From Lachnospiraceae bacterium (lineage in GTDB: Bacteria > Bacillota > Clostridia > Lachnospirales > Lachnospiraceae), in the NCBI GenBank assembly GCA_017462755.1, contig JAFTQM010000055.1, forward strand, positions 1 to 55,214: 55,214 bases of DNA, read 5' to 3'. The translations under genes and the position numbers were made by a program. Of the stretch, positions 621 to 41,155 are shown piece after piece. The notes below the pieces were generated by a model, which searched no databases, was not told where the DNA came from, and saw only the letters and a program-made list of their open reading frames with translations. Position 1 is the stretch's first letter. Each line of letters starts with the position of its first letter.

Positions 621-1559
621 TTACTCTCCCACCCTTCCTAAAATTTTCTGTACAAGCTTATTCGATCCTACCATGAGTAAGAACAGAATCGTTGCAATCG
701 CGGATGCGTAACCCATCTCAAAACGGGTTGTACCATAATCGAGAAGGTGTGTTACTACGGTTGCTCCGGCATAGTTTACCGAAGGATTACCTGCTAACTG
801 AATCGAAATATCCGCTACTGCAAAGGACTGTGTAATCTGCATTACGGCACCGAACATGAGCTGTGGCTTCATTGCCGGAAGAGTTACATACCATAACTCC
901 TGCCAACGGTTCTTTACACCATCCATCGCTGCCGCCTCGTAAAGCGACTTATCTACGGTCTGGAGACCTGCGATGAAGGAAAGGAAGCCGGTACCAAGAC
1001 TGAGCCATAACTGTACGATAATCAGTACCGGTAAAACGTAGCTCTCGGTCTGCATCCAGAGAATCGGCTCATCAATAAAGCCCATCTTGATTAACATACC
1101 GTTTAACCAACCGGTCTTACCAGGATTTAAGATGATGTTCCATACCAGATATGCCTGACCACAAATGGACGGTGCATAGAAAATCAGTGTAAGGAACGCT
1201 CTTAACTTACCCTTGAACTCATTGATAATCCATGCGAACAACAGACAGAGCATATAACTGATCGGTCCGGTGATAACCGCGAAAATCAATGTGTTCTTTA
1301 ATGCAATCATGAAAATATCATCATCCAGGAAGAGCTTGATGTAATTTTTCCAGCCTACAAACGTAGGTGCTTCCAGCATGTTGAAATAAGTGAAACTAAA
1401 GCCCATGGACACCAATACCGGTGCAATCGTAAAGAATGCAAACAAAATCAGATATGGTGCAAGCATGATATAAGAAATTTTATTTTTCTTTATCTGGTAA
1501 AGTAACTTACCCTGCTTTTTGGCTTTTTCCAAATTAGCGTCTTTCGTTGGTTCTGCCAC
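621..1559 (-). CDS. ABC sugar transporter permease, MalF type
   Basis: Integral membrane subunit of a carbohydrate ABC importer, 312 residues with about six hydrophobic segments. The EAA loop is clear near residues 205-230 (LYEAAAMDGVKNRWQEL). It starts at a GTG with AGGAGGAG upstream, 16 bp after the solute-binding protein gene, and its stop touches the start of the MalG-like gene, so the two are translationally coupled. Together with the large binding protein and the GH26 mannanase upstream, the likely substrate is a mannan- or glucomannan-derived oligosaccharide; that substrate is inferred from context only. Confidence 0.93.
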   Translation of the reverse strand: MAEPTKDANLEKAKKQGKLLYQIKKNKISYIMLAPYLILFAFFTIAPVLVSMGFSFTYFNMLEAPTFVGWKNYIKLFLDDDIFMIALKNTLIFAVITGPISYMLCLLFAWIINEFKGKLRAFLTLIFYAPSICGQAYLVWNIILNPGKTGWLNGMLIKMGFIDEPILWMQTESYVLPVLIIVQLWLSLGTGFLSFIAGLQTVDKSLYEAAAMDGVKNRWQELWYVTLPAMKPQLMFGAVMQITQSFAVADISIQLAGNPSVNYAGATVVTHLLDYGTTRFEMGYASAIATILFLLMVGSNKLVQKILGRVGE

Positions 1560-1575
1560 CGCAAACTCCTCCTTT

Positions 1576-4545
1576 CTATTCTTCTTCTACATACAACGGA
1601 AGGTCAAACTCTTCACGCTTGTAATCAATCTCTGCATCAATCAGAATTACCTTATCCATCAGCTCTTCTCTCGGAGAGGTGCTGTCACTCTCGGTGGTAA
1701 CCTTGTAGAATGCATTGTTAACGTTACGCCAGGAGAAATATCCGCCCGGTACCTGCGGAATACCCTTTACCTTCTCAAACTGCTCCATCAGAGCTTCACG
1801 CTCTGCATTTGGCCAAGGAAGTGCTTCAAATGCCTTGATGTTTGCAGTCGCAATACGAGCTGCCGAACCCATCAGGGACTCCATTTCCTTACCATATGCA
1901 ATCTGAGTTTCAGCAGAGGTCCACCACTTTAAGAACTCCCAGGATGCTTCCGGATCTTCGGTATCCTTCATAACTACACAAGCCTGACCGCTGCTTCCTA
2001 CAACATTGTTCAGCTCGTCAGCCTCTTCGTTGTATGTACCCGGAACCGGAGCAATTCCCCAAAGACCCTTGATATCCGGTGCAGATACCTGCAGGTTGTT
2101 GTACAGGGTGTAGTCTGCGATAATAATCGGAGCCTCACCGGTACGGAAACGCTCTTCTACGTTAGTAGACTGGTCAATCTTATAATCGGTATAGAATTCA
2201 CAGTACTCCTTGAATGCATTTACTGCCTGGTCGCTGTTCAGTGCGGAACGGGAACCGTCTGCATTGTAGTACTCGCCGCCGTTCTGATACAGAAGCATTG
2301 CAAAAATATTCTCGCCCGGAAGCATACCGATTTCCATTTGGTTCTTACTTAATACAGTCATTACGACCTTAACCTCTTCCCATGTAGTAGGAATGTCCAG
2401 ATTCAGCTCCTTTAAGATATCCTTACGATAGAACATCATCGGGAAGGTCTGGGTCTCCGGTAATGCGTAGGTTGCGCCGTCAAACTCAAACGGTACCATC
2501 GCACTGTCGTAGAAACGCTCGGTTACCTCACCTAAATCTGCGAACTGACTCAAATCAAGCACCGCATCTCTCAAACCGTAATTCATCGGCAGGTCGTTTC
2601 CTACTTGTATCGCAACATCCGGTCCCTGTCCGGCGAGTGTCGCCTGCAGCAACGTACCCATATCTACAATCATTACGTTAACACTGATACCACTCTTGTT
2701 GGTAAAGGTCTTATCTACCAGCGCCTTGATAACATTTGCCTGATCACGACCGGAACCTACCCACAGGGTAATCGCACGGTCGCTTGCTGCTGCTACGTTA
2801 CCAATCTGGTTGTAATCAATTACGAAGGAATAATACAGTCTGGTCAACTCATAAAGGAGTCTGCTCCAGAAATTGCTGTTCTCCACTTCTACTTCTACAT
2901 CAGCAGAATGTACATAGATGGTATCCAACTGCATCGGCTGCTCCAATGCGGAAGTAACCCAGGTACCAAGCGCACGCACATTGGTCTTATAAGAGGAAAT
3001 AACCTTTACGAAGTACTCGCCATCCTCAATTAACTCATCTAACTGGTCGCGCATGGTAATCAATGCAGTTTCCTTATCACTCTTCTTGCCGGTTGCGGCA
3101 CGAAGATCCTTAATAACATTGTTCAACTGGTCTCTTACTGCCACCAGCTCACCGTTTAACTCCGGCAGACTCGACTCAATCTGATAGTCACGGTAGGAGT
3201 CCGGGGATACACCGGTAATACGGATAATCTTACGATAAATCGCATTCAGCTGTGCCATACAGTCCTCAACCTCACTGATGATGTCCGAGAACTCACCCAG
3301 TACCGTCTGCATACGAAGAGTATGCTTACCTGCCTCTAAATAAATCATGAAGTCATTTCCTTCCGAGTCAGCCAGTGTTTCCATTCTCCAGGTCTGCTCA
3401 TAGGAAAAACCATAATCCTCTAATTCTTCAAAAGGTACTTCGCCGTCAATCGTAATCTTTCTGGACACATAGAAGCCCTTTACAAAGTTCTGTCTGGTGT
3501 GCATGGAGATATTGTAATATCCGCTCTCCGGCACCTCAAAATCCCATTCAATCCACTGGTTTACCAATCTCCAGGAGTTACCGCCGATTGCATTGTTTAA
3601 CAGCTCCTTTGCGCTGGACGGATACAATGCAGGAGAAGACTGATCCTGTGTCGGATAAAGCATCTGGGAAGAGGTTCTTGCTGCATTCTCTGCCTCGATA
3701 CGAATGGACTTGCCGCTGGTAGCTGTAGCACCTGCTGCATCCCACTCACTCTTCTTATCCGCATAGCTCTTTACCTCTTCCGGATTGTCCAGACGTACTC
3801 TGCGGAGCAGCATCGGCTCACGCAGGGAAACCATCGTAACCGTATGCTCACCGGCTGTCAGATACATGGACAGACGGCTGGTGATATAACCCTCGGAATC
3901 ATACAGATAAGAGGTCATCCATCTAGGTGCTTCCTCCATCGATGGCTTTAAATCATTGTTCTGATTATCCTTAACCCAGTTCTTTACCTGAATACCATCC
4001 TCATTTTCAACCAAATCAAGAACCGTATTCTGCCATACTCTCTGGAACTCAACCATCGCTAACTCGTTATATAACAACTTACCGTCTACAAAGAACGCTC
4101 TCTGAATATCCGAACTGTTTCCTGCTACCGGAAAATAGTCCAGAGACATATCGTAAAAGCCCTCTTCTGTGACCGTAATGTCGAATTCAATCATACCGTT
4201 CTCCGCAATCAGTACGGAATCTCCGGTCTCACCCTCATAGTCGGTATAGACTTCCGGCTTAGAGTAAACCTCATTACCGCTCTCATCCACCGAGCCATCC
4301 GTATAACGCGCATAATCGGCCGCATCTACTACGATTTCTGCGTCCGGTCTGACATCATTATACTGAGCCAAATACTCTTCGTAACTTAACATGGAATCAT
4401 CAATCGAATAAGTACCTACGATATCTTCGTATTCTTCGAGTGATACATCCGTCTGGGCGTAGGAAGGCGTTGCCGGCTGACCGGTTACAATCATCGCTGT
4501 CAGCGCCAGAAACGCGGTAAATCTGTTCTTCGTCTTCTTACCCAT
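1576..4545 (-). CDS. Giant extracellular solute-binding protein with carbohydrate-binding-like modules
   Basis: 989 residues, more than twice the usual 420-550 for family 1 sugar-binding proteins. A signal peptide (residues about 1-30, ending PSYAQ) is present but there is no lipobox cysteine. Residues about 74-258 and 284-430 look like two beta-sandwich modules similar in style to CBM6/35 (each has a segment like FYDMSLDYFPV or YYNISMHTRQN, and a later AGEHTV / AGKHTLRM strand). A helical stretch follows (about 430-560), then a standard solute-binding domain from about residue 610 (ITLWVGSGRDQANVIKALV, then GQGPDVAI) to about 960 (PEASWEFLKWWTS). It lies between YesL and the two permeases and should be their binding protein. 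The start has AAAGGAGGAG upstream. Membrane attachment without a lipid anchor is unexplained. Confidence 0.9.
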   Translation of the reverse strand: MGKKTKNRFTAFLALTAMIVTGQPATPSYAQTDVSLEEYEDIVGTYSIDDSMLSYEEYLAQYNDVRPDAEIVVDAADYARYTDGSVDESGNEVYSKPEVYTDYEGETGDSVLIAENGMIEFDITVTEEGFYDMSLDYFPVAGNSSDIQRAFFVDGKLLYNELAMVEFQRVWQNTVLDLVENEDGIQVKNWVKDNQNNDLKPSMEEAPRWMTSYLYDSEGYITSRLSMYLTAGEHTVTMVSLREPMLLRRVRLDNPEEVKSYADKKSEWDAAGATATSGKSIRIEAENAARTSSQMLYPTQDQSSPALYPSSAKELLNNAIGGNSWRLVNQWIEWDFEVPESGYYNISMHTRQNFVKGFYVSRKITIDGEVPFEELEDYGFSYEQTWRMETLADSEGNDFMIYLEAGKHTLRMQTVLGEFSDIISEVEDCMAQLNAIYRKIIRITGVSPDSYRDYQIESSLPELNGELVAVRDQLNNVIKDLRAATGKKSDKETALITMRDQLDELIEDGEYFVKVISSYKTNVRALGTWVTSALEQPMQLDTIYVHSADVEVEVENSNFWSRLLYELTRLYYSFVIDYNQIGNVAAASDRAITLWVGSGRDQANVIKALVDKTFTNKSGISVNVMIVDMGTLLQATLAGQGPDVAIQVGNDLPMNYGLRDAVLDLSQFADLGEVTERFYDSAMVPFEFDGATYALPETQTFPMMFYRKDILKELNLDIPTTWEEVKVVMTVLSKNQMEIGMLPGENIFAMLLYQNGGEYYNADGSRSALNSDQAVNAFKEYCEFYTDYKIDQSTNVEERFRTGEAPIIIADYTLYNNLQVSAPDIKGLWGIAPVPGTYNEEADELNNVVGSSGQACVVMKDTEDPEASWEFLKWWTSAETQIAYGKEMESLMGSAARIATANIKAFEALPWPNAEREALMEQFEKVKGIPQVPGGYFSWRNVNNAFYKVTTESDSTSPREELMDKVILIDAEIDYKREEFDLPLYVEEE

Positions 4546-5245: not shown

Positions 5246-6853
5246 TTATTCATGAATTGGATAGGTCTTCAGATCCGGTAATTCCGAAAAGTTAATCGCC
5301 GCTTCATGACTGTATACCTTCTTTACCATCTCTGCCTCCGTATACTGCTCTGACAATATATTCAGACTCGCATCCTTCAGTACACACTCGCCGCCCCAGG
5401 TCGTGTAGTAGCCCCACATCGCACCATCGCGGATTGCCAGATCCGGGTCAAACAGACAACCGTTCTCCGACATTACTACCATCTTGCGCTCTACCGAGTA
5501 GCCCGCTGCTTCCAAAAACTTCTTTACCTGAGAGGTATATACCTTTTCGCCCGGATAAATATCCTCACCGATGATATCTACATATTCATCACCCGGATAC
5601 CAGTCTGCCGACTGTCCGTTCCATACCCAAATCAGGTTGTTCAAGCCATGGTGATTGGTCAGGCGGTCATACAGCAGCTTATACAATTCCTTGTATGCCT
5701 CCGCACCGGATGCACCCCACCAGAACCAGCCGCCGCTTGCCTCATGCAATGGTCTCCACAGCACCGGCACATCTGCATCCTGCAGCTTTTTCAACTGCTC
5801 CGCAATCGCATCAATATCGCGAATCAGCAGGTCATAACCTGCGGTATCCTCTCCTGACATAATCTTTGCCAGATTGATATTGGTATGTTCCTTATAGAAT
5901 CCACTGTACCAAACACCCGTCAGATATTCCTCCGGTGCATTCCAGTGCCAGCAGAAGGTCACGATACCGCCTGCATCCCAATAATCAATCGCATATTCGA
6001 CTGCTTTCGAGGTAGAGCCGTTCGCCACACGCGAAGGAGTGTACTCAATCAAATCCAGTCCGAGAATCGCCGGGAACTCTCCGCCGGTCGTCTTCCAAAT
6101 CGCCGAACGTTCCATGCCGTACATACCGGCATCGCTGCTCTGACCGGTCAGATACTGTTTTCCGTAAATGTCCGTCAGGTAGCTCATCAGACGCTTGGCA
6201 TTATCAGTGGCATTCTCGTTAATCAGCTTTGCACTGACCTCATAAAGATCCTCCGGAAGTGCTGCCGAGCCCTTTAAGGTAATCGAGTCTACACCAATCC
6301 ATCCCCAATATTTCGATATTGTAATTTCATGCTGCCCTTCTTCCAAATAAACCCGCTCCACAACTACGTTTTCGAAGCTGCTCTTGGTATTTTTGAAGGT
6401 ACCGAACTGTTCCCCGTCAATATGAATATAATTTTCCTTCGTATCGCCGGTACTGAACGAAACAATATGTAAATCATAGAATCCGGTCTGCTCTGCATTG
6501 ACCGTAATCGTACAGGCATCTCCGTCCGCTTCAAAGCCGGTCACATAACCCTCACCGCGAAAGCCGTTCTTGCTGCTTTCTATCCGGGCATTTCCGGTCA
6601 GTGTTCCCTTCTCAGCCTCGTAAATTACCGGCTCCGCCGTAACAACCGGTATCGCCGTCGGTGCAGCATCCTCGCCTCCTGTCGAAGCCTCCGGTGTCGG
6701 CTCTGCTTCTTCCGCTCCGGAAGGTGTTACCTCTGCATTTGCCGCCTCGGTCGGTGTCGGTTCCACCTTCGAATCCGAACCCTTTCCGCACGCTGCAAGC
6801 CCCAAAGTGCACAATGCCATGCCAATTGCCAATGCTCTCTTGTTTTTTCTCAT
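5246..6853 (-). CDS. GH26 endo-beta-mannanase lipoprotein with CBM35-like module
   Basis: Secreted enzyme predicted to hydrolyse internal beta-1,4-mannosidic bonds of mannans at the cell surface. The 535-residue protein has a lipoprotein signal (LGLAAC, Cys22), a Glu/Pro/Thr-rich linker (about 26-72), a CBM35-like beta-sandwich (about 74-196, starting VIYEAEKGTL), and a GH26 catalytic domain (about 202-530). Visible catalytic residues are Glu371 in WRPLHE (acid/base) and Glu463 in VVMSENG (nucleophile). The start has GAGGATAGCT in front of ATG. It is the first structural gene after the LacI regulator and precedes yesL and the transporter. GH26 also contains a few other activities, but the mannan-binding-like module favours mannanase. 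Confidence 0.93.
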   Translation of the reverse strand: MRKNKRALAIGMALCTLGLAACGKGSDSKVEPTPTEAANAEVTPSGAEEAEPTPEASTGGEDAAPTAIPVVTAEPVIYEAEKGTLTGNARIESSKNGFRGEGYVTGFEADGDACTITVNAEQTGFYDLHIVSFSTGDTKENYIHIDGEQFGTFKNTKSSFENVVVERVYLEEGQHEITISKYWGWIGVDSITLKGSAALPEDLYEVSAKLINENATDNAKRLMSYLTDIYGKQYLTGQSSDAGMYGMERSAIWKTTGGEFPAILGLDLIEYTPSRVANGSTSKAVEYAIDYWDAGGIVTFCWHWNAPEEYLTGVWYSGFYKEHTNINLAKIMSGEDTAGYDLLIRDIDAIAEQLKKLQDADVPVLWRPLHEASGGWFWWGASGAEAYKELYKLLYDRLTNHHGLNNLIWVWNGQSADWYPGDEYVDIIGEDIYPGEKVYTSQVKKFLEAAGYSVERKMVVMSENGCLFDPDLAIRDGAMWGYYTTWGGECVLKDASLNILSEQYTEAEMVKKVYSHEAAINFSELPDLKTYPIHE

Positions 6854-7094
6854 AGCTATCCTCGCTTCTTTCTTACATAACCAATATTAACACACTATAA
6901 CGTTTTCGTCAATCTTTTCTTTGTGCAAATTATACAACAGGTTTTGAACATTCCATTGTTTTCTGTGCAACCATCTATGTTTTTCATAGTTTTTTGCCCA
7001 CTTTTTTGGTAATATTTTTGCACAATATGAACCTTTTTCCACTTTTTTAACCCATTATCACTGAGTCGTCCTAAAGTCCGTTACACTTACCTGC
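6854..7094. promoter_or_regulatory. AT-rich intergenic region between lacI-type gene and mannan operon, with TGTGCAA motifs
   Basis: This 241 bp stretch contains no gene. It is the promoter region of the GH26-transporter operon (minus strand). The word TGTGCAA or its complement occurs three times: TTGTGCAAA at 6921-6929, TGTGCAA at 6964-6970, and TTTTGCACA at 7016-7024. Similar words recur upstream of the regulator gene, so they may be its operators (inference). No clear intrinsic terminator for the regulator gene is seen. Confidence 0.4.
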
Positions 7095-8126
7095 TTATTT
7101 TCCGGAGGATTCCCGATAAATAACCATCGAATCCACAACTACGGTTTCTCTCGGCAAATCCGGATTCTGCATACGGAACAAAAGCTGCGCCACCAGACGT
7201 CTGCCCAGACGCTGATTTCCGACCTTAACCGTCGTTAAGAACGGTTCTCCTCTCGACAACTCCTCCTCGTTGTCAAATCCGGTTACTGCGACATCCTCCG
7301 GCACTCTTAAGCCTCGTGCCTTCAAGGTCCGAATTACCAGAAACGCAATCGCATCATTCGCACACACTACCGCGTCCGGAAGCTCTGCCAATCCGTCAAT
7401 GTATCGCTCCACCTCCTGCGGCCAGTAATATCTGCCCTCGGTATGAGCCACTGCCATCAGTTCCTCACTCTGTTCCATGCCTGCCTCTCTGAGTGCGGTC
7501 AGATAGCCCTGAAAACGCTCCTTCATCGTCCGGCAGTAAGTAATATCTCCGATAAAACCAATGCGTTTTCTTCCCTGCTTAATGAGCGTATTGGTAATTC
7601 TTCGCACACTTTCCTGACCTTCCATCAGAAGAATATCCACATTGCGCACCTTTTCATCACGCCACTCCGGCGCATCCAGACAAACAATCGGCAGCTTCTT
7701 CTTCAAAATCTCATCCATATATGCATCCGAAAATACCGTTATCATAATGATACCATCGATACCCTCTTCAAATTCCTTCGGAAGCACCAGATTCTTTTCA
7801 TCCTCTTCATTTACAAAATTGATTCTGAGCCGACAGCCGTTTTTGTTTACCGCATCCGAAATACCGATTACTACGCTGTTCCAAAATACCGTAACTTCCT
7901 TGCGCCCCATTACCAGAATTGTCTTCTGCTCCGTCTGTGCATTTTTTATTTTGAACTCATTCAGCGCCGCTGGCGAAACCTTCTGATACCCCATCTCGCA
8001 CGCCTTCTCAATCACCATGTATCTGGTTTCGTACGCCACGGTATCACTATTGTTCAGTGCTTTCGCCACTGTATTTCTGGACAGGTTCAGCTCCCTCGCC
8101 ACATCCTGAATTGTTACCTTTTTCAT
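7095..8126 (-). CDS. LacI family transcriptional regulator
   Basis: 343-residue regulator, probably controlling the adjacent mannan operon. The N-terminal helix-turn-helix (residues 1-50) reads VTIQDVARELNLSRNTVAKA, a LacI-type fold, but the recognition helix has NTVAKALN where the family usually has TVSRVLN, and the hinge helix lacks the usual ARSLR-like sequence. The sugar-binding core follows (about 65-340; GIDGIIMITVFSD, PDAVVCANDAIAF, VAVTGFDNEEELS). The ATG has GGGAGG upstream. The gene lies directly upstream of the GH26 gene in the same orientation. The effector is unknown; a manno-oligosaccharide is the obvious guess. Confidence 0.92.
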   Translation of the reverse strand: MKKVTIQDVARELNLSRNTVAKALNNSDTVAYETRYMVIEKACEMGYQKVSPAALNEFKIKNAQTEQKTILVMGRKEVTVFWNSVVIGISDAVNKNGCRLRINFVNEEDEKNLVLPKEFEEGIDGIIMITVFSDAYMDEILKKKLPIVCLDAPEWRDEKVRNVDILLMEGQESVRRITNTLIKQGRKRIGFIGDITYCRTMKERFQGYLTALREAGMEQSEELMAVAHTEGRYYWPQEVERYIDGLAELPDAVVCANDAIAFLVIRTLKARGLRVPEDVAVTGFDNEEELSRGEPFLTTVKVGNQRLGRRLVAQLLFRMQNPDLPRETVVVDSMVIYRESSGK

Positions 8127-8189
8127 GACAGCCTCCCTTTTCTTTTACCTTCCGACCAATCGTGCATCCTTTCGCATTGCACATTATGC

Positions 8190-8375
8190 ATCACTTTGCA
8201 AAAGTACCATTTCGTCATTTTCCCCTATCACGTCTACTTTGCAATCCATCTTATCTGTATTTTACCACAAACAAACCCGCTTTTCAAGCTTTTTATTATG
8301 CTTTTTTCACAATTTTGCAAAATCAAGCATTTGTTTTGCATCATTTTGCACAATCTCATTTTCTTCATTTGCATC
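8190..8375. promoter_or_regulatory. Cluster of six TTTGCA words upstream of the lacI-type gene
   Basis: TTTGCA occurs on the plus strand at 8195, 8238, 8314, 8335, 8345 and 8368; the 8314 copy sits in the perfect palindrome ATTTTGCAAAAT (8312-8323). Spacings of 21, 10 and 23 bp among the last four are close to whole helical turns. Related words occur in the promoter of the mannan operon. A multi-site operator of the LacI-type protein is plausible but is inference. Confidence 0.4.
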
Positions 8376-8386
8376 ATACTTTATAA

Positions 8387-8399
8387 GGAAGCGCTTACA
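8387..8399. promoter_or_regulatory. cre / LacI-family operator-like palindrome
   Basis: The sequence GGAAGCGCTTACA contains AAGCGCTT, the core shared by CcpA cre sites and many LacI-family operators. It lies about 265 bp upstream of the LacI-type gene, so it could mediate catabolite control or autoregulation. Only the sequence match supports it. Confidence 0.35.
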
Positions 8400-8407
8400 T
8401 AGAACAA

Positions 8408-8609
8408 AGAGTTTGCAACGCAAACTCTCGCGCTGACGCGCGGTCACAAAGTGACATCTACTGTTCGCGCGTATAAAACGGATTTCATCCGTTTAACCAG
8501 TTTGCGTCTTACGCAAACTGTGCAAGCGAACTTAGTTCGCTTTGCATCCACCCGTAGGGTTTTGTATGAAAGGAAATAGTCGCTTTGCGACTACTTCCTT
8601 TCATACAAA
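8408..8609. repeat. Mosaic of seven short palindromes (long copy of a modular repeat)
   Basis: Back-to-back hairpins with 3-4 nt loops fill this stretch: 8408-8428 (9 bp stem), 8429-8442 (5 bp), 8443-8455 (5 bp), 8476-8494 (8 bp), 8498-8520 (10 bp), 8521-8546 (9 bp plus bulge), a weak ACCC/GGGT pair at 8550-8560, and 8561-8609 (23 bp stem, one mismatch, loop TTT). The first 64 bp (8409-8472) match 35349-35412 with about five differences. The later words GCATCC and GGGTTTTGT correspond to the tail of that second copy, which lacks the three middle hairpins. No reading frame is apparent. Confidence 0.8.
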
Positions 8610-32886: not shown

Positions 32887-32915
32887 ATTATATGGAATTC
32901 TCTCCGGAAAGTCAA
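32887..32915 (-). promoter_or_regulatory. Promoter of the SseB-rsmE-desulfurase-thiI operon
   Basis: Minus strand TTGACT, 17 bp spacer, perfect TATAAT. The -35 box overlaps the stop codon of the upstream dihydrouridine synthase gene. Confidence 0.75.
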
Positions 32916-33865
32916 TCATTGAGTTCCACGCCCGCTCTGTCTGTTTCACTCTTTGCTAACAGCCTCCGGATTGCCTGTTTCATCTCCTTTGCATCTCCGG
33001 CTTTTTTTAACGGCTTTATCTCCTTTTCCGAAGCTGCAAAATACGTCCCCAAATACAACCAAAGCTCCTTCATTTTGAACATTGCATTATGCTCTCCCAT
33101 AACCTCGGTATAATCCTCAAACAAACGGTCCGAAAACTCCTGCACCCGTCCGGTACCGCCCCAATCCTTTCCTGCATATTCTGCCAAAAGTCCCGGATGC
33201 CTTAACAAACCGCGCCCAAGCATCAGTGCCTCTACCTTACTCTCTTTTACCACCTCATCTATGTCCTTACACGTCCACAAATCTCCGTTATAGCAAAGCG
33301 GAAGCCTGCATCGTTTTGCCACCCGATAAAACATATCCCGATGCGGAGTTCCCTTATAATATTCCGTCCGGATACGCGGATGAATCGTCAGCTCTGCAAC
33401 CGGATAACGTTCAAATATCTCAAGCAGTCCTTCAAATTCCTCCGGATCCTCCATTCCCAACCGGGTTTTTATCGAAATCCTTCCTTCGACCTGTTCAAAA
33501 ATCTGCTCCAAAAAGGCATCCAACTGCCACGGCACACTCAAAAAGCCTGCTCCTTTCTTTTTGGATACCACCGTTCCGGACGGACAGCCCAGATTCAGAT
33601 TGATTTCCTCGTACCCCATCTGTCGCAATTCCTTAGCCGTCTGTACAAAATACTCCGCATTGTTTGCTAAAATCTGCGGCACCACACCCGGAATCGGATT
33701 ATTCTCCGGGCAGATATCCCGATATTCCTTCGGCGTAAAGCATCCGTTCTGCGTTGGCGAAACAAACGGTGTAAAATATTTATCCATCGGTCCAAAATAT
33801 TCATGAAATGCATTGCGAAATACATACCCGGTAATCCCCTCCATCGGGGCAAAATAATATTTCAT
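32912..33865 (-). CDS. tRNA-dihydrouridine synthase
   Basis: 317-residue flavoenzyme reducing uridine in tRNA D-loops. It begins MKYYFAPMEGITGYVFRNAF, has the active-site cysteine in NLGCPSGTVVSKKKGAGFL, SIKTRLGMEDPEEFEGLLEI, LTIHPRIRTEYYKG and VEALMLGRGLLRHPGL. Which Dus type it belongs to is unclear. RBS AGGAG precedes the ATG. It is divergent from the GH27 gene. Confidence 0.93.
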   Translation of the reverse strand: MKYYFAPMEGITGYVFRNAFHEYFGPMDKYFTPFVSPTQNGCFTPKEYRDICPENNPIPGVVPQILANNAEYFVQTAKELRQMGYEEINLNLGCPSGTVVSKKKGAGFLSVPWQLDAFLEQIFEQVEGRISIKTRLGMEDPEEFEGLLEIFERYPVAELTIHPRIRTEYYKGTPHRDMFYRVAKRCRLPLCYNGDLWTCKDIDEVVKESKVEALMLGRGLLRHPGLLAEYAGKDWGGTGRVQEFSDRLFEDYTEVMGEHNAMFKMKELWLYLGTYFAASEKEIKPLKKAGDAKEMKQAIRRLLAKSETDRAGVELND

Positions 33866-35465: not shown

Positions 35466-38189
35466 CTAATCCGTTCCTTTTACTTCTGCCTGCTCCAATG
35501 CCTTCTTCAGCACTTCATTCTTTCCCTTCGGCTGTCGACTCAAAAACTCCTGAAGCTGCGTCGTTGTCACGCGTTCTACCTCTTCCTTCAGCTCTCTGGC
35601 AGACATCCGCACCGCTCCCTGACCAATGATAATCAGCTGCTCTAACGCATCTGAGGTTGCTACCGTTACCCGGTGCTTTCTTCCGATTTCATGTGTTACC
35701 CGCTCAATATACATATCTGCCGTTTCTGCTTCCTTCGTATAGACGATATGAATATTATGATAATCAAACGCCGTCCCCGGATTTCCTTTTACGCGATACG
35801 CATCAAATACCAGAATCAGCTCTTTTTTCGTAAAGCCCTGATAATTACACAAAATGTCCATCAGACGCATTCTTGCCGATTCCAGATTTTCTTTTGCCAG
35901 CTCTTTTAACTCCTCCCATGCAAAAACCACATTATATCCATCGACCAACAGATATTCCGGCAATTTTTCGGCTTCCGGCAAATAAACACGATGAGACGAT
36001 GCCCCCTGCGCATTGCGTTTTCGATTTTCTTCTCCGAGCGCAGCCGAGGTTCCTGACAATCGGGCCTTAACCGGCCCGAAGGTACGGGCAAATATTGCTT
36101 CCAGCTCCTTATCCTCTGCGTAAGAGCCGGAGTAGCCTCTGCTTCCGGCACTTTTTACCGTGGCTACCGGTGCAGCTTTTTCCTCTGCCAAATCCTCCGG
36201 CATCTCTTCCGAAAAAGCATCCATCACATCATACCCTGCCGTATCACCCGGCACTACCGTCTGGCCCAGCCGAAGTCCGCTGTCCAAATGCATATAATTT
36301 GCTGCCACTCGCCAGGAAACCAAAAATCCGGCTCCATGCGAACAAAATACCGAATCTGCGGTATTCTCCAAATCTCCTTCTGCATCGTACTGAAGGCGTG
36401 CAATGACCTCCTCTGTATTGTGACAAGGCTCATAGCCCCGCATCTGACACACCAGTCTGCCACAGCCTCTGGTGTAAGAAATCAGCTCTGCTGCATATCC
36501 CTGCATGGTCGCTACCGGCGCACTTCCGGTTAATACCGCTTTATCTCCTTCAAATTCCGGCGGCAAAAACTTTCCATGCATTCGTTCTATATCCGACATT
36601 GCACGTCCTACATTCTCTCCAGGAAGCTCCATTCGAAAATTATAATACGGCTCCAAGAGTACACTCTTCGCCCGCATCAAACCATGCCGTACTGCCCGAT
36701 AGGTTGCCTGTCTGAAATCTCCGCCCTCAGTATGCTTCAAATGCGCTCTGCCCGCTACCAGTGTTATTTTCATATCGGTAATCGGAGAACCGGTTAGTAC
36801 ACCCAGATGCTCCTTTTCTTCCAAATGTGTAAAAATCAATCGCTGCCAGTTCCGATCCAGCACATCCTCACTGCAGCGACTCTCCAATACCAATCCGCTC
36901 CCCAGCTCTCCCGGCTCCATCAGCAAGTGTACCTCTGCATAATGACGCAACGGTTCATAATGTCCCATGCCTTCTATCGGAGCTGCAATGGTCTCGCGGT
37001 ATACGATACTACCCTCATCAAATGCAACCGTTACACCAAAACGTTCCTGTATCATACTCCGAAGGATTTCTAACTGCACATTTCCCATCAACTGTACATG
37101 AATCTCCCGAAGCGCTTCCTTCCAAGTCACATGAAGCAGCGGCTCCTCCTCCATCAATTCACGCAGCTTCTGAAGCAGCACCACCGGATCGGTACCCTCC
37201 TGCAATACCAACCGGTAATTCATTACCGGTGCCAGCATCGGAAGCTCCGAAGCCCGTTCGATTCCAAAGCCCTGTCCCGGAAAGGTTGCGCTACAGCCGG
37301 ATATTGCACACACCGTACCCGCCTCTGCGCATTCCACTGTTTGAAACTTGCTTCCACTGTACAGACGAATTTGGTCTACCTTATCCTCGCCATGCAGCTT
37401 TTCCTTTACCCGCAGACTACCACCGGTTATTTTTAGGTAAGTCAGTCTGGTACCGGCATCATCTCTGCCGATTTTATACACTCTGGCTCCAAACTCTGCC
37501 GGATATTCCTTTTGCCGCGTGTAAGCTGCCATTCCGTCGAGCAACTCTTCCACACCCAATACCTTGAGTGCAGAACCAAAATACACAGGAAATACCTTAC
37601 GCTCCGCAATCGCAGCTGCTACAGATTCCGTCGCAAGCGTTCCGGTTTCCATATATTCGTCCAGCAACGCTTCCTTACAAAGCGCCAGTGCTTCATTTTT
37701 TGCATCCTCCGGCTGTCCTGCACTAAAATCTACACATTCCTCCGACAAATGCTTCTTCAAATTTGCGAGCAGTGTCTCCGGCTCACAATCCGGCAAATCC
37801 ATTTTATTCACAAAGATAAACACCGGAATCTGATAATGTGCCAGCAGCCTCCACAAGGTCTCCGTATGTCCCTGCACTCCGTCACTTCCACTGATTACCA
37901 GCACCGCATAATCCAGCACCTGCAGTGCACGCTCCATTTCCGTTGAAAAATCCACATGCCCCGGCGTGTCCAACAGCGTGACCTCAAGCTCCTTCCATTC
38001 AAATCTCGCCTGCTTTGAGAAAATCGTAATTCCTCTTGTCCGCTCCAGCGCATAGGTATCCAAAAATGCATCCTTATGATCCACTCTGCCCAGCTTTCGT
38101 ATGCTGCCGGATAAATAAAGCATTCCCTCCGACAGGGTTGTTTTCCCGGCGTCTACATGCGCCAAAATTCCGGTTACTAATTTTCTCAT
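35466..38189 (-). CDS. TetM/EF-G-like GTPase fused to a Rae1/YacP-like NYN nuclease
   Basis: 907 residues. Residues 1 to about 660 are a ribosomal-protection or EF-G-like translational GTPase: P-loop AHVDAGKTT (10-18), switch I RGITIF, DTPGH (74-78), NKMD (128-131), then barrel and domain IV blocks (HTEGGDFRQATYRAVRHGLM, LLEPYYNFRM). Residues about 743-895 match YacP/Rae1, the Bacillus endonuclease that cuts mRNA in the ribosomal A site: YLLVDGYNVVFAW, LVFDAYRVKG, KEAETADMYIE, VATSDALEQ, GQGAVRMSARELKEEVE. The acidic residues Asp750, Asp796, Asp825 and Asp847 are all kept. A linker of about 70 residues with SAGSRGYSGSYAEDKELEAI joins them. It lies 16 bp after the hybrid kinase gene. Tetracycline resistance is possible but not implied. 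Confidence 0.9.
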   Translation of the reverse strand: MRKLVTGILAHVDAGKTTLSEGMLYLSGSIRKLGRVDHKDAFLDTYALERTRGITIFSKQARFEWKELEVTLLDTPGHVDFSTEMERALQVLDYAVLVISGSDGVQGHTETLWRLLAHYQIPVFIFVNKMDLPDCEPETLLANLKKHLSEECVDFSAGQPEDAKNEALALCKEALLDEYMETGTLATESVAAAIAERKVFPVYFGSALKVLGVEELLDGMAAYTRQKEYPAEFGARVYKIGRDDAGTRLTYLKITGGSLRVKEKLHGEDKVDQIRLYSGSKFQTVECAEAGTVCAISGCSATFPGQGFGIERASELPMLAPVMNYRLVLQEGTDPVVLLQKLRELMEEEPLLHVTWKEALREIHVQLMGNVQLEILRSMIQERFGVTVAFDEGSIVYRETIAAPIEGMGHYEPLRHYAEVHLLMEPGELGSGLVLESRCSEDVLDRNWQRLIFTHLEEKEHLGVLTGSPITDMKITLVAGRAHLKHTEGGDFRQATYRAVRHGLMRAKSVLLEPYYNFRMELPGENVGRAMSDIERMHGKFLPPEFEGDKAVLTGSAPVATMQGYAAELISYTRGCGRLVCQMRGYEPCHNTEEVIARLQYDAEGDLENTADSVFCSHGAGFLVSWRVAANYMHLDSGLRLGQTVVPGDTAGYDVMDAFSEEMPEDLAEEKAAPVATVKSAGSRGYSGSYAEDKELEAIFARTFGPVKARLSGTSAALGEENRKRNAQGASSHRVYLPEAEKLPEYLLVDGYNVVFAWEELKELAKENLESARMRLMDILCNYQGFTKKELILVFDAYRVKGNPGTAFDYHNIHIVYTKEAETADMYIERVTHEIGRKHRVTVATSDALEQLIIIGQGAVRMSARELKEEVERVTTTQLQEFLSRQPKGKNEVLKKALEQAEVKGTD

Positions 38190-38205: not shown

Positions 38206-41049
38206 CTATTTTGTACAATTCGGATTGCATACCTCACTCAGCATTTGATACAGCAGCGCACTGTCGATTGGCTTCGCAATATATCCGCTCATGCCAACCT
38301 TTTCCGCCTGCTCCTTATCATCCTCAAACGCATTCGCCGTCATTACAATAATCGGAGTATGCCTTCCATTCTCTTTTTCTTTTTCCCGAATCCAGCTTGC
38401 AGTCTCCAAACCATCCATCACCGGCATACGGATATCCATCAAAATAACGTCATAATTTCCCTGTGCAGCCTTGTAGCATTCCATCGCCTGCTGACCGTCT
38501 TGCGCTACCTCTACCTGCATACCGACACGCTCCAGCATTCGCTTTGCAATCTCTGCATTGATTGGATGATCCTCACACAACAGCACACGTTTTCCCGCAA
38601 GAATTCCTTCCGGCAATTCCTTAGTCGCAGCCTTTTTTGCTTCCTGTCGTTCCGTTTCAAATTCATCGCACAATTCAAACGAAAGATCTACCACAAACTC
38701 CGTTCCCTCGTTCGGCTTACTTGAAACCGTAATCGAACCGCCCAATTCCTCTACCAGCTTTTCTACGATTGCCAATCCCAGTCCGCTGCCCTCTCCTCTC
38801 TGCACATCCTCTTGCACAAACGGCTCAAAAATATGCGGTAAAAACTCCGGACTGATTCCGATTCCATCGTCCACTACGCGAAAACGGTTATATACTCTGC
38901 CATTCTCCACCTTTAGCTTATACACTTCATAGCGAATATGTCCGCCCCGCGGAGTAAACTTTATTGCATTGTTCAACAGATTCAAGAAAATCTGCTTTAC
39001 TCGCACCTGCGCCGAAATTACATACTCGCGCTTATCATCATAATTGTGGATTTCAAAACTAATTCCTTTTTCCTCCGCCAAAGGTCGTATTACCGCATCA
39101 ATTTCCTGAAAAAAGCCCTCGATGCTTGCAGGATGATAATGTAACTTCAGCTTGCCGTTCTCTGCTTTTACCATATCCAGTACATCATTCAGCAGCTCCA
39201 GCAGATATTTTCCGGACATATTGATTTTCGTCAAATTTCCTATTTTTTCTTCTACAGTTGCCGTCTCATTCATTAATGGGTCAGAATAACCAATAACCGC
39301 ATTCAGCGGTGTACGCAGGTCATGGCTCATACGCGACAAAAACTCCGTCTTTGCCTGACTCGCCGTATTCGCACGACCAACGGCCAGCTTCAGTTGCTTA
39401 TTGATATGCTGGCGATAGCTTGCTATATAAGTAACAATACAGGTAATAACCAGTAAAACCACACAGACAACCACAAAAATTGATGTGTTGTAACGATAGA
39501 AAAAGTCTACCAGTGATTCGTCCGCGGAATAACTGGTCAGATTTTCAATCAAAATATTGGTACGGGTTTCCTCCGAAATATTACTAATTGCTTTATTTAA
39601 AATAGTCAATAAATGTGAATCCGTATATGCCGATACACCAATACAATAATCATAAATCGAATCCGGATAAGCAAGCGCTGTAATATTTCTATATCTCGGA
39701 TAATTTATCAGCTGGTCCATACTATAGTCCGGAATCATAGAAATATCCGCTTTTCCACGATTTACCATATCTACACATTTCTCAAAGGTCTCTGCATAAA
39801 CAATATCCGTATACCCTAACTCCTTGACCATCAATTCAAAAAACGGTGTACTGTTTACTACAACAACCCGGTTGTCTAGCTCCTTGTAATCTGCCACCGC
39901 ACTATTGATAACTACAGTAACCGAACCGTTGGAATATGCTTCCGTTATCGCTACATGCAGGCTTTCTACATTCCTGTCCGATGCAGCTACCAGACCAATC
40001 AGCTGTACCTCATCGTCTTTCATCTGTCGCTGCAATTCCTCTCTCTGCTCCTTTGCTACAAAGCGAAACTGCAGACCCGTAATCTGATGAATTGCGTCAA
40101 ACGTATCTACTACGATTCCCCGATATGTGCCGCTCTTCTCATCATAATACTCAATCGGGCTCATATCCACCGACAGTGCTACCGTAATCACTCCTGCATT
40201 CTCTATATACTGCTTCTCCTCCTCCGACATCGTTACCTGCTTTAATATGCCGGGAAAATATTTATCATCCAGCATTGCTTCATAATACGGTTCTTCCAGC
40301 CGAATCTGATACATTGCTTCGTCCAACTGTTCTTTTATTTCCGGTCTGCTTTGATTCAGCATAAAATACCAGGGCATCGATAGAATTCGTGCAATAATCT
40401 TGTAATCCTTTTCACAGCTTACGTTCGCCATCAGGACGGCATCTACTTTTCCTGCCGCCAATGCTGCCTTGGCTTCTCCATCCGATTCGTATTCTACAAA
40501 CTCTACTTCTACACCTTTTGTATCAAAAAACTCCTGTGCCTGACTATAGCTGAGTGTTCCTTTCAATACCGCAATCCGCATTCCTGCATAAGACTCAAAG
40601 TCATTGAACATATATTGGGTCTGAGCCGGAAGAGTACAAAGAACAATGGAACCCTGCCCCATCGAAAGCTCCGAAAAATCACCAATCTCTTCGCGTTCCT
40701 CCGTCATCTGACATCCCGGCAAAATATCTACCGTTCCATTCTTAATTGCTTCTATTGCTTCTTCAAAAGACATTCGGACAAATTCATATTCCCAATCCGT
40801 ATACTTCTGTATTTCTTTCAAATATTCATATGCCGCACCATAAGGTGTATCATCCTTTTGCAATGTCAAATAACACGGAAAATCATTTACCGCTACCCGG
40901 ATTTTTTCTGTTTCACTCTGCTCTGTCGCTTCCTTCGCCTCATTCGTATCCGCATATACTGTAGCCGAATCCTGTCTAAAAAATCCCCCTATTATAATAA
41001 CCAAACATGCCAGCAAAGTCATCTTTACATATCGTTGCTTTCCTTTCAT
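38206..41049 (-). CDS. Hybrid sensor histidine kinase with two periplasmic binding domains and receiver
   Basis: 947-residue membrane sensor. After a signal anchor (LLACLVIIIGGFF), two tandem family 3 solute-binding domains follow (about 45-260, with GTVDILPGCQMTEEREEIGD, and about 285-520, with GVITVALSVDMSPIEYYDE). A membrane segment lies near 550 (IFVVVCVVLLVITCIVTYIA). The kinase has the H-box FLSRMSHDLRTPLNAVIGY, the G-box GSGLGLAIVEKLVEE, and a C-terminal receiver with VILMDIRMPVMDG. The start at 41049 has GGGAGGCGGCGT in front. Amino-acid-like or small polar ligands are typical of the family, but the ligand is unknown. No separate output regulator is adjacent. Confidence 0.94.
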   Translation of the reverse strand: MKGKQRYVKMTLLACLVIIIGGFFRQDSATVYADTNEAKEATEQSETEKIRVAVNDFPCYLTLQKDDTPYGAAYEYLKEIQKYTDWEYEFVRMSFEEAIEAIKNGTVDILPGCQMTEEREEIGDFSELSMGQGSIVLCTLPAQTQYMFNDFESYAGMRIAVLKGTLSYSQAQEFFDTKGVEVEFVEYESDGEAKAALAAGKVDAVLMANVSCEKDYKIIARILSMPWYFMLNQSRPEIKEQLDEAMYQIRLEEPYYEAMLDDKYFPGILKQVTMSEEEKQYIENAGVITVALSVDMSPIEYYDEKSGTYRGIVVDTFDAIHQITGLQFRFVAKEQREELQRQMKDDEVQLIGLVAASDRNVESLHVAITEAYSNGSVTVVINSAVADYKELDNRVVVVNSTPFFELMVKELGYTDIVYAETFEKCVDMVNRGKADISMIPDYSMDQLINYPRYRNITALAYPDSIYDYCIGVSAYTDSHLLTILNKAISNISEETRTNILIENLTSYSADESLVDFFYRYNTSIFVVVCVVLLVITCIVTYIASYRQHINKQLKLAVGRANTASQAKTEFLSRMSHDLRTPLNAVIGYSDPLMNETATVEEKIGNLTKINMSGKYLLELLNDVLDMVKAENGKLKLHYHPASIEGFFQEIDAVIRPLAEEKGISFEIHNYDDKREYVISAQVRVKQIFLNLLNNAIKFTPRGGHIRYEVYKLKVENGRVYNRFRVVDDGIGISPEFLPHIFEPFVQEDVQRGEGSGLGLAIVEKLVEELGGSITVSSKPNEGTEFVVDLSFELCDEFETERQEAKKAATKELPEGILAGKRVLLCEDHPINAEIAKRMLERVGMQVEVAQDGQQAMECYKAAQGNYDVILMDIRMPVMDGLETASWIREKEKENGRHTPIIVMTANAFEDDKEQAEKVGMSGYIAKPIDSALLYQMLSEVCNPNCTK

Positions 41050-41155
41050 ACGCCGCCTCCCATTCCCCCTTATTATATAATATTTCCTCTTGAGACTCAA
41101 CTTGTTTATCACTCATATTTCGTTCGAATTTTGACACGAAACCAAAAGAATCTTT

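Follow-up and report, generated by a model that had tools for sequence, protein, structure and literature searches.

A translational GTPase joined to a Rae1-type nuclease in Lachnospiraceae and other Clostridia

Introduction

The window analysed here, the whole 55,214-nucleotide stretch of contig JAFTQM010000055.1 (assembly GCA_017462755.1) from a Lachnospiraceae bacterium, carries on its minus strand a gene that joins an EF-G/Tet-like translational GTPase (trGTPase) through a linker to a Rae1-type NYN nuclease. The locus raises the question of what a trGTPase and a nuclease of this type do in one protein. On balance, we favour the reading that the GTPase guides the nuclease to ribosomes whose A site stands open, that the nuclease would cut the mRNA there, and that the fused protein would be the normal Rae1 of this bacterial family, not a resistance gene. 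How nucleases like Rae1 find paused ribosomes is a question that a one-gene fusion makes directly testable, by uncoupling the halves. In eukaryotic no-go decay (Cue2, Hbs1/Dom34), a nuclease works with a trGTPase at stalled ribosomes; the fusion resembles that system in idea only, and no homology is claimed.

Rae1 of Bacillus subtilis is described as a translation-dependent mRNA endonuclease of the ribosomal A site (PMC6613710). Its first known substrate is S1025. The fusion, presented in the preliminary description of this DNA as the strongest candidate for an undescribed system, had already been reported: Atkinson 2015 (PMC4342817) describes Tet proteins with a YacP-like NYN domain in ten species of clostridia. 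Those fusions have the same architecture and come from the same bacterial group, a likeness that we draw from their description, not from their sequence. Literature searches for the fusion led each time to that paper; the text of PMC6613710 consulted contains no mention of one, and the main Rae1 papers may mention it. What is new here is the prevalence of the fusion in the family, in place of a standalone gene, the GTPase clade with its tip loop, and the near absence of an arginine element at the nuclease C-terminus.

Results

Two intact halves in one open frame

The gene occupies 35466-38189 on the minus strand as a single open frame of 907 codons with an ATG start. It has no internal stops, just as the preliminary description had it, and the remaining two minus-strand frames across the interval contain 55 and 38 stops. 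Third-position GC content is uniform along the gene (0.50 in the GTPase, 0.48 in the linker and 0.48 in the nuclease). Pfam matched GTP_EFTU, EFG_III, EFG_IV, EFG_C and NYN_YacP on the protein of 907 amino acids (aa), and the P-loop AHVDAGKT, DTPGH and NKMD motifs reported before are all present. The parts of the gene, all on the minus strand, are as follows.

35466..38189, minus: whole fused gene, EF-G/Tet-like GTPase, linker and Rae1-type NYN nuclease, 907 aa
37518..38174, minus: G domain, residues 6-224, with AHVDAGKT, DTPGH and NKMD (Pfam GTP_EFTU, 175.9 bits)
37284..37490, minus: domain II, residues 234-302 (Pfam EF-G_D2, 20.4 bits, under the cut-off of 27)
37020..37229, minus: domain III, residues 321-390 (Pfam EFG_III)
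36666..37010, minus: domain IV, residues 394-508 (Pfam EFG_IV)
36924..36965, minus: domain IV signature GHYEPLRHYAEVHL, residues 409-422 (alignment)
36711..36743, minus: domain IV loop III HLKHTEGGDFR, residues 483-493 (alignment with TetM and TetO)
36417..36662, minus: domain V, residues 510-591 (Pfam EFG_C)
36255..36416, minus: GTPase C-terminal extension carrying C616 and H634, residues 592-645 (alignment)
36255-36425, minus: Cys/His set C589, H590, C616 and H634, with C589 and H590 just before the extension
35964..36254, minus: variable linker, residues 646-742 (mean conservation 0.20)
36072..36107, minus: linker motif ELEAIFARTFGP, residues 695-706 (pattern against shuffled linkers)
35481..35951, minus: NYN_YacP nuclease domain, residues 747-903 (Pfam PF05991, 174.1 bits; curated cut-off 24.6)
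35940..35942, minus: catalytic Asp750, equivalent to Rae1 D7 (120/120)
35802..35804, minus: catalytic Asp796, equivalent to Rae1 D53 (120/120)
35715..35717, minus: catalytic Asp825, equivalent to Rae1 D81 (120/120)
35649..35651, minus: catalytic Asp847, equivalent to Rae1 D104 (120/120)

Conservation was counted on an alignment of 120 distinct fused proteins, the window protein included. It was highest in domain IV, with a mean of 0.83, against 0.71 for the G domain, 0.70 for the NYN domain and 0.20 for the linker. The four active-site Asp residues named in the preliminary description align with B. subtilis Rae1 residues D7, D53, D81 and D104. Together with N753, they are invariant in all 120 fused proteins, and a clade-wide loss of these acidic residues, raised at the outset as a concern, did not appear. 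The same five residues were present in 21/21 further fused or nuclease-bearing frames, several of them very divergent, a tally that leaves out L297 (no long frame) and those long frames in L298, L300 and L304-L306 that are unrelated (here and below, numbers preceded by L or G are our own handles for sequences and genomes).

The other concern was a frameshift joining two genes. Both halves lay in one frame of 853-988 aa in 40/40 fetched regions, which had been preselected for an NYN match within a long frame and comprised 20 from the window's family and 20 from 19 other family-level groups. Among the best 80 loci of a contig profile scan, 79 held a full-length fused frame, and the 80th, L216, ended at a contig edge and was removed before the counts. 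These best 80 loci were labelled Lachnospiraceae (48), Erysipelotrichaceae (1, L250), other or unplaced Clostridia (27) or carried no label (4). The gene was also present in genomes assembled as one or few contigs (e.g. G035 and G102), and among its carriers are the deposited strains DSM 28559 (L233) and DSM 1801 (L259). Frameshift or misassembly is thus excluded as the general cause. In one genome, G042 (L119), the fused gene is split into two overlapping frames (5513-6085 and 6063-8198), by fission or by sequencing error.

The GTPase half and its relation to Tet proteins

The nearest solved chains to the GTPase half are TetO and TetM, and it shares with these Tet proteins an EF-G-like build of five domains, of which domain II in the window stays below its Pfam cut-off. 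Compared with TetM and TetO, the fused protein has a different loop III, an extra Cys/His extension, a linker and a nuclease. On the curated Tet model NF012153, the window protein reached 405 bits, where the cut-off is 775, and on the EF-G model TIGR00484 it scored 268.1 against 659.4, failing both. The Tet cut-off was passed by L274 (852.6 bits) and L136 (880.5 bits), found in the same searches, to which the window protein is about 29-32% identical. Two of the four Tet-like rows tested (L277 and L275) also missed this cut-off, so we use "Tet-like" as a loose label. Unfused GTPases of about 650 aa from Clostridia (L126-L133 and L261-L271) are 41-50% identical to the window protein. They carry the same domain IV and extension signatures, have no linker or nuclease, and, in genomes that also have NYN, are encoded at a separate locus. 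Three of them scored 393-450 bits on the Tet model, and an NCBIfam scan of these three passed no cut-off among the matches listed.

We placed these proteins in a GTPase tree of 86 rows, including eight Tet-like rows of our own choosing and an EF-G outgroup of four; two truncated GTPases of the unfused kind from G099 (L134 and L288) were left out of the alignment and the tree. The tree came from a quick search, with 30 of its 83 inner branches weak and L273 on a long branch. All 54 fused rows and one split gene formed one clade, with a support of 93 in the SH-like approximate likelihood ratio test (SH-aLRT). Of the 20 rows with an unfused label, all but L271 and the split gene formed another clade (18 rows, SH-aLRT 96). 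A support of 99 held fused and unfused rows together, and the eight Tet-like rows stood apart (89). Judged by this tree, fused and unfused proteins make up one subfamily of trGTPases, with the Tet-like rows of our set as its sister group. Because of its score on the Tet model, its position outside the Tet-like rows and its different tip loop, the GTPase half is classed here as other than a Tet protein proper; of the earlier TetM/EF-G label, the part that stands is an EF-G/Tet-like GTPase.

Domain IV differs between the fused proteins and the Tet-like ones. The signature GH(F/Y)EPLRHYAEV occurs in the 120 fused proteins and 19 unfused GTPases, and in 0/8 Tet-like rows. In loop III, the fused protein has HLKHTEGGDFR where TetM and TetO have YYSPVSTPADFR. 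Of the ten conserved residues of H-x-KHTEGGDFR, eight occur in all 120 fused proteins, K485 in 119 and E488 in 113. SPV is found in 4/8 Tet-like rows, the remaining four have H-x-x-H(S/T)-x-P-x-DF with some letters as in the fused loop, and H483 of the window aligns with an EF-G His. In the A-site region, the domain IV tip loops of Tet proteins and EF-G are reported to contact the drug or the tRNA (PMC4342817, PMC8161019); loop III of TetM holds Pro509 in the drug site (PMC8161019) and has been termed functionally most important (PMC4750697). A distinct and conserved loop III, within the best conserved domain of the protein, suggests that the protein has a conserved function at the decoding site that is distinct from tetracycline removal.

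Behind domain V, the Cys/His residues of the fused proteins are also largely kept (C589 in 120, C616 in 120, H634 in 117 and H590 in 104 of 120), and less so in divergent fused proteins. The Cys/His extension occurs in the unfused GTPases as well and is not found in the eight Tet-like rows. The set is possibly a metal site.

The linker varies between 58 and 147 aa (median 80, n=120) between residue columns 645 and 746, which at 0.36 nm per residue gives a contour length of about 21-53 nm. Within it, a motif resembling ELxxIFxRTYG matched a loose pattern in 102/120 linkers and a strict one in 68/120, and the loose pattern was matched by 2 of 24,000 shuffled linkers. Most of the remaining 18 linkers, inspected by eye, contain a variant.

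The nuclease half and standalone Rae1

The nuclease half belongs to the NYN_YacP family, with the four catalytic Asp and the DGYN core of Rae1/YacP. A phmmer comparison with the B. subtilis YacP chain (PDB 5mq8) gave an E-value of 4e-29, so the two are clear relatives, though not the very close ones first described. Standalone Rae1 differs in having no fused trGTPase, in its cysS-mrnC-rlmB-rae1-sigH neighbourhood, outside which the window fusion lies, and in its FEKWRR element. The B. subtilis Rae1 ends in TFEKWRRGDLD, with R166 inside this element, and R166P was recovered among loss-of-function suppressors (PMC6613710). By our own criterion, the window tail has no basic element of the FEKWRR type. 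The pattern LE-x-hydrophobic-R-R/K was present in 21/35 standalone tails and in 1/120 fused tails, and a looser C-terminal pattern in 28/35 and 18/120, respectively, with the standalone set taken without L016, L055, L118, L119 and L125 and the rows of both sets related by descent. The tail carries a median net charge of +4 in standalone and -2 in fused proteins. Judged by its tail, the fused form seems to have shed a C-terminal element that the GTPase would make unnecessary. Some positions within the NYN domain differ as well; position 798 is Tyr in 99% of fused proteins and His in 69% of standalone ones.

Distribution of the fused and standalone forms

We examined 439 genomes, made up of 150 from the window's family and 291 from its class, two of them shared. 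A gene was scored as fused when NYN lay in a frame of at least 516 aa with the GTPase half also matched, and some such frames are cut by contig ends (e.g. G006 and G098). NYN_YacP was matched in 135/150 family genomes. The fused form was found in 122 of the 150, a standalone NYN in 9 (G059, G024, G099, G007, G020, G016, G068, G054 and G029), a broken or contig-end NYN in 4 (G095, G140, G042 and G128) and no NYN in 15. The class sample gave an NYN match in 189/291 genomes, with that of G396 below the cut-off, and the fused gene occurs in 19 other family-level groups besides the window's family.

Among the 322 NYN-matching genomes of the 439, no case of a fused NYN alongside a standalone one was shown, with G039 undecided. 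Seven of the 322 gave two NYN matches. Both lie inside one frame in G130, and G039 and G076 have a fused copy plus a fragment at a contig end. For G285, G350 and G390, a standalone NYN beside the fused gene was considered and rejected, the second matches being below the cut-off. The seventh, the incomplete genome G282, contains two fused copies (L290 and L291) on different tree branches, which could reflect horizontal movement or a mixed bin.

The surroundings of the standalone genes suggest where the nuclease came from. rlmB shares a stretch with NYN in 15/19 fetched standalone loci (not in L102, L106, L109 and L111), an arrangement that is also found in C. difficile and B. subtilis. In 8/8 fused genomes checked, the mrnC-rlmB stretch is present without NYN, and sigH comes next in six of them. 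Read most simply, these two observations suggest that the nuclease has moved away from its ancestral locus and, in its fused form, serves the family as Rae1. The resolution of the NYN tree was too poor to place the family's standalone genes as ancestral or derived. With one fusion clade, 122/150 family genomes fused and no genome shown to have an extra standalone copy, the joining of trGTPase and Rae1-type nuclease is, as far as sequence can tell, old and maintained, with both halves real and conserved.

Discussion

A GTPase that may deliver its own nuclease

For ribosome state, delivery, order of steps and cleavage itself, we infer the following course. The EF-G-like half, with its own domain IV tip, would bind paused or stalled ribosomes whose A site is open, and the NYN nuclease on its flexible linker would become concentrated there. 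In the relay that we favour, GTP would be hydrolysed, domain IV would depart and the tethered nuclease would take over the A site, cutting the mRNA in or beside it; the truncated mRNA would then be cleared by tmRNA and other rescue routes. Cleavage would probably come after GTP hydrolysis because domain IV and Rae1 would fill the same space. We suggest more tentatively, and with somewhat less than even confidence, that this is a separate trGTPase subfamily which does not expel antibiotics, that H-x-KHTEGGDFR senses the vacant A site, that hand-over to Rae1 is gated by GTP, and that docking of ELxxIFxRTYG sets the order. If true, Clostridia would have a one-protein, GTP-gated surveillance factor that cuts mRNA. 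Lacking the drug-expelling loop of the tetracycline-resistance factors that it resembles, the fused protein may serve in the quality control of stuck ribosomes and not in resistance.

How far do the two halves travel together? In the family sample (n=150), NYN occurred with a subfamily GTPase in 130 genomes, NYN only in five, GTPase only in none and neither in 15; the co-occurrence in 130 of 135 is mostly the fusion itself. Among family genomes without the fused gene, an unfused GTPase elsewhere was found in 5/9 with a standalone NYN and in 0/15 without NYN (Fisher p 0.003, an overstated value, since related genomes are not independent). One of the five, G099, has a truncated GTPase, and G068 was scored as without GTPase, its sole match being Tet-like. 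Several further observations speak against the delivery proposal. At least six class genomes have an unfused GTPase and no NYN (G178, G211, G332, G183, G227 and G355), a lower bound, as at most four candidates were scored per genome. Conversely, 20 of the 22 standalone-NYN genomes tried from other families have no subfamily GTPase, and neither do G007, G016, G020, G068 and G309. The link between GTPase and NYN is therefore suggestive, not strict, and weaker outside the family. tmRNA and MutS2 were present in 15/15 genomes tried, including four without NYN, and so are permissive only and lend no specific support. Divergent fused proteins have a looser tip loop, and P-loop letters are altered in L272, L273 and L299. 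L299 (G135, 992-3034, 680 aa) is seemingly without domains IV and V and keeps the Asp tetrad. L300 has T in place of the N of NKMD. Finally, a single A site has no room for both domain IV and Rae1, so that the model must be either two-step, as in the relay, or one of action in trans.

Alternative explanations

Action in trans, the main alternative to the relay, would mean that the GTPase sits in the stalled A site and that the nuclease on its tether cuts mRNA on another ribosome, next to the first or collided with it, or mRNA off the ribosome. The shared space at the A site would be accommodated in this way, and a linker of this length would reach, though the length fits the relay as well. We regard this variant as unlikely, since Rae1 itself is described as acting in the A site and our analysis contains no pointer to collisions. 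An equally improbable role is one in ribosome biogenesis or RNA maturation, with the nuclease trimming rRNA or tRNA precursors and the GTPase serving assembly or quality control. Standalone NYN genes often lie beside mrnC and rlmB, which encode rRNA enzymes, and NYN domains have been proposed to act in rRNA and tRNA maturation (PMC4342817). However, the B. subtilis relative is described as an mRNA endonuclease that depends on translation (PMC6613710), and the fused gene lies outside the mrnC-rlmB neighbourhood.

The explanation that we consider least probable, and very doubtful, is antibiotic resistance, in which the protein would protect the ribosome from tetracycline-like drugs and add an RNase activity. 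Atkinson 2015 (PMC4342817) files the fusions under Tet and proposes such an RNase-based resistance, TetO and TetM are the nearest solved chains, and RefSeq calls the member from Agathobacter rectalis a TetM/TetW/TetO/TetS-family resistance protein. Against this stand the score on the Tet model, whose cut-off L274 and L136 pass, and a loop III that lacks the TetM/TetO sequence with its drug-site Pro. The presence of the fusion in 122/150 genomes of the family also counts against resistance, and some genomes (G138, G028 and G104) additionally carry a second, Tet-like protein. The names in public databases vary: a Monoglobus protein is a "translation factor GTPase family protein", and A. rectalis WP_306784676 (L303, 2811-5612), named as a tetracycline-resistance protein of the TetM/TetW/TetO/TetS family, scores 389 bits against the cut-off of 775. 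Naming the fused proteins after Tet could inflate resistance counts in gut commensals.

Mobility and neighbourhood

Whether the fused gene is a mobile resistance gene was addressed with a tblastn search using residues 646-907. It returned 23 plasmid and 13 phage records, of which none covered 80% of the query, and this candidate was rejected. The full fused gene is present in two large records labelled plasmid (L303 and L304). Some horizontal movement of the fused gene is likely, given the records L303-L306 and the mixing of families in the GTPase tree. L305 and L306 are two unverified human faecal contigs labelled "Bacteriophage sp." that hold the full fused gene at 5397-8024 and 5841-8450, respectively, and they may be mislabelled bacterial DNA or real carriage.

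In the window, the start codon of the fused gene lies 16 bases past the stop of a hybrid sensor kinase gene (38206-41112, same strand). A conserved operon was rejected, as the commonest neighbour cluster within 5 kb occurred in 17/120 fused loci. A protein cluster of tRNA-dihydrouridine synthases (Dus) had a member within 5 kb in 6/120 loci at a median distance of 26 bases, the window among them (32912-33865). In addition to full-length MutS2, a shorter MutS2-like protein (638-659 aa) was seen at G000:C77:26345-27907, with matches in G024, G127 and G046; it aligns only to the first 510-550 positions of the profile.

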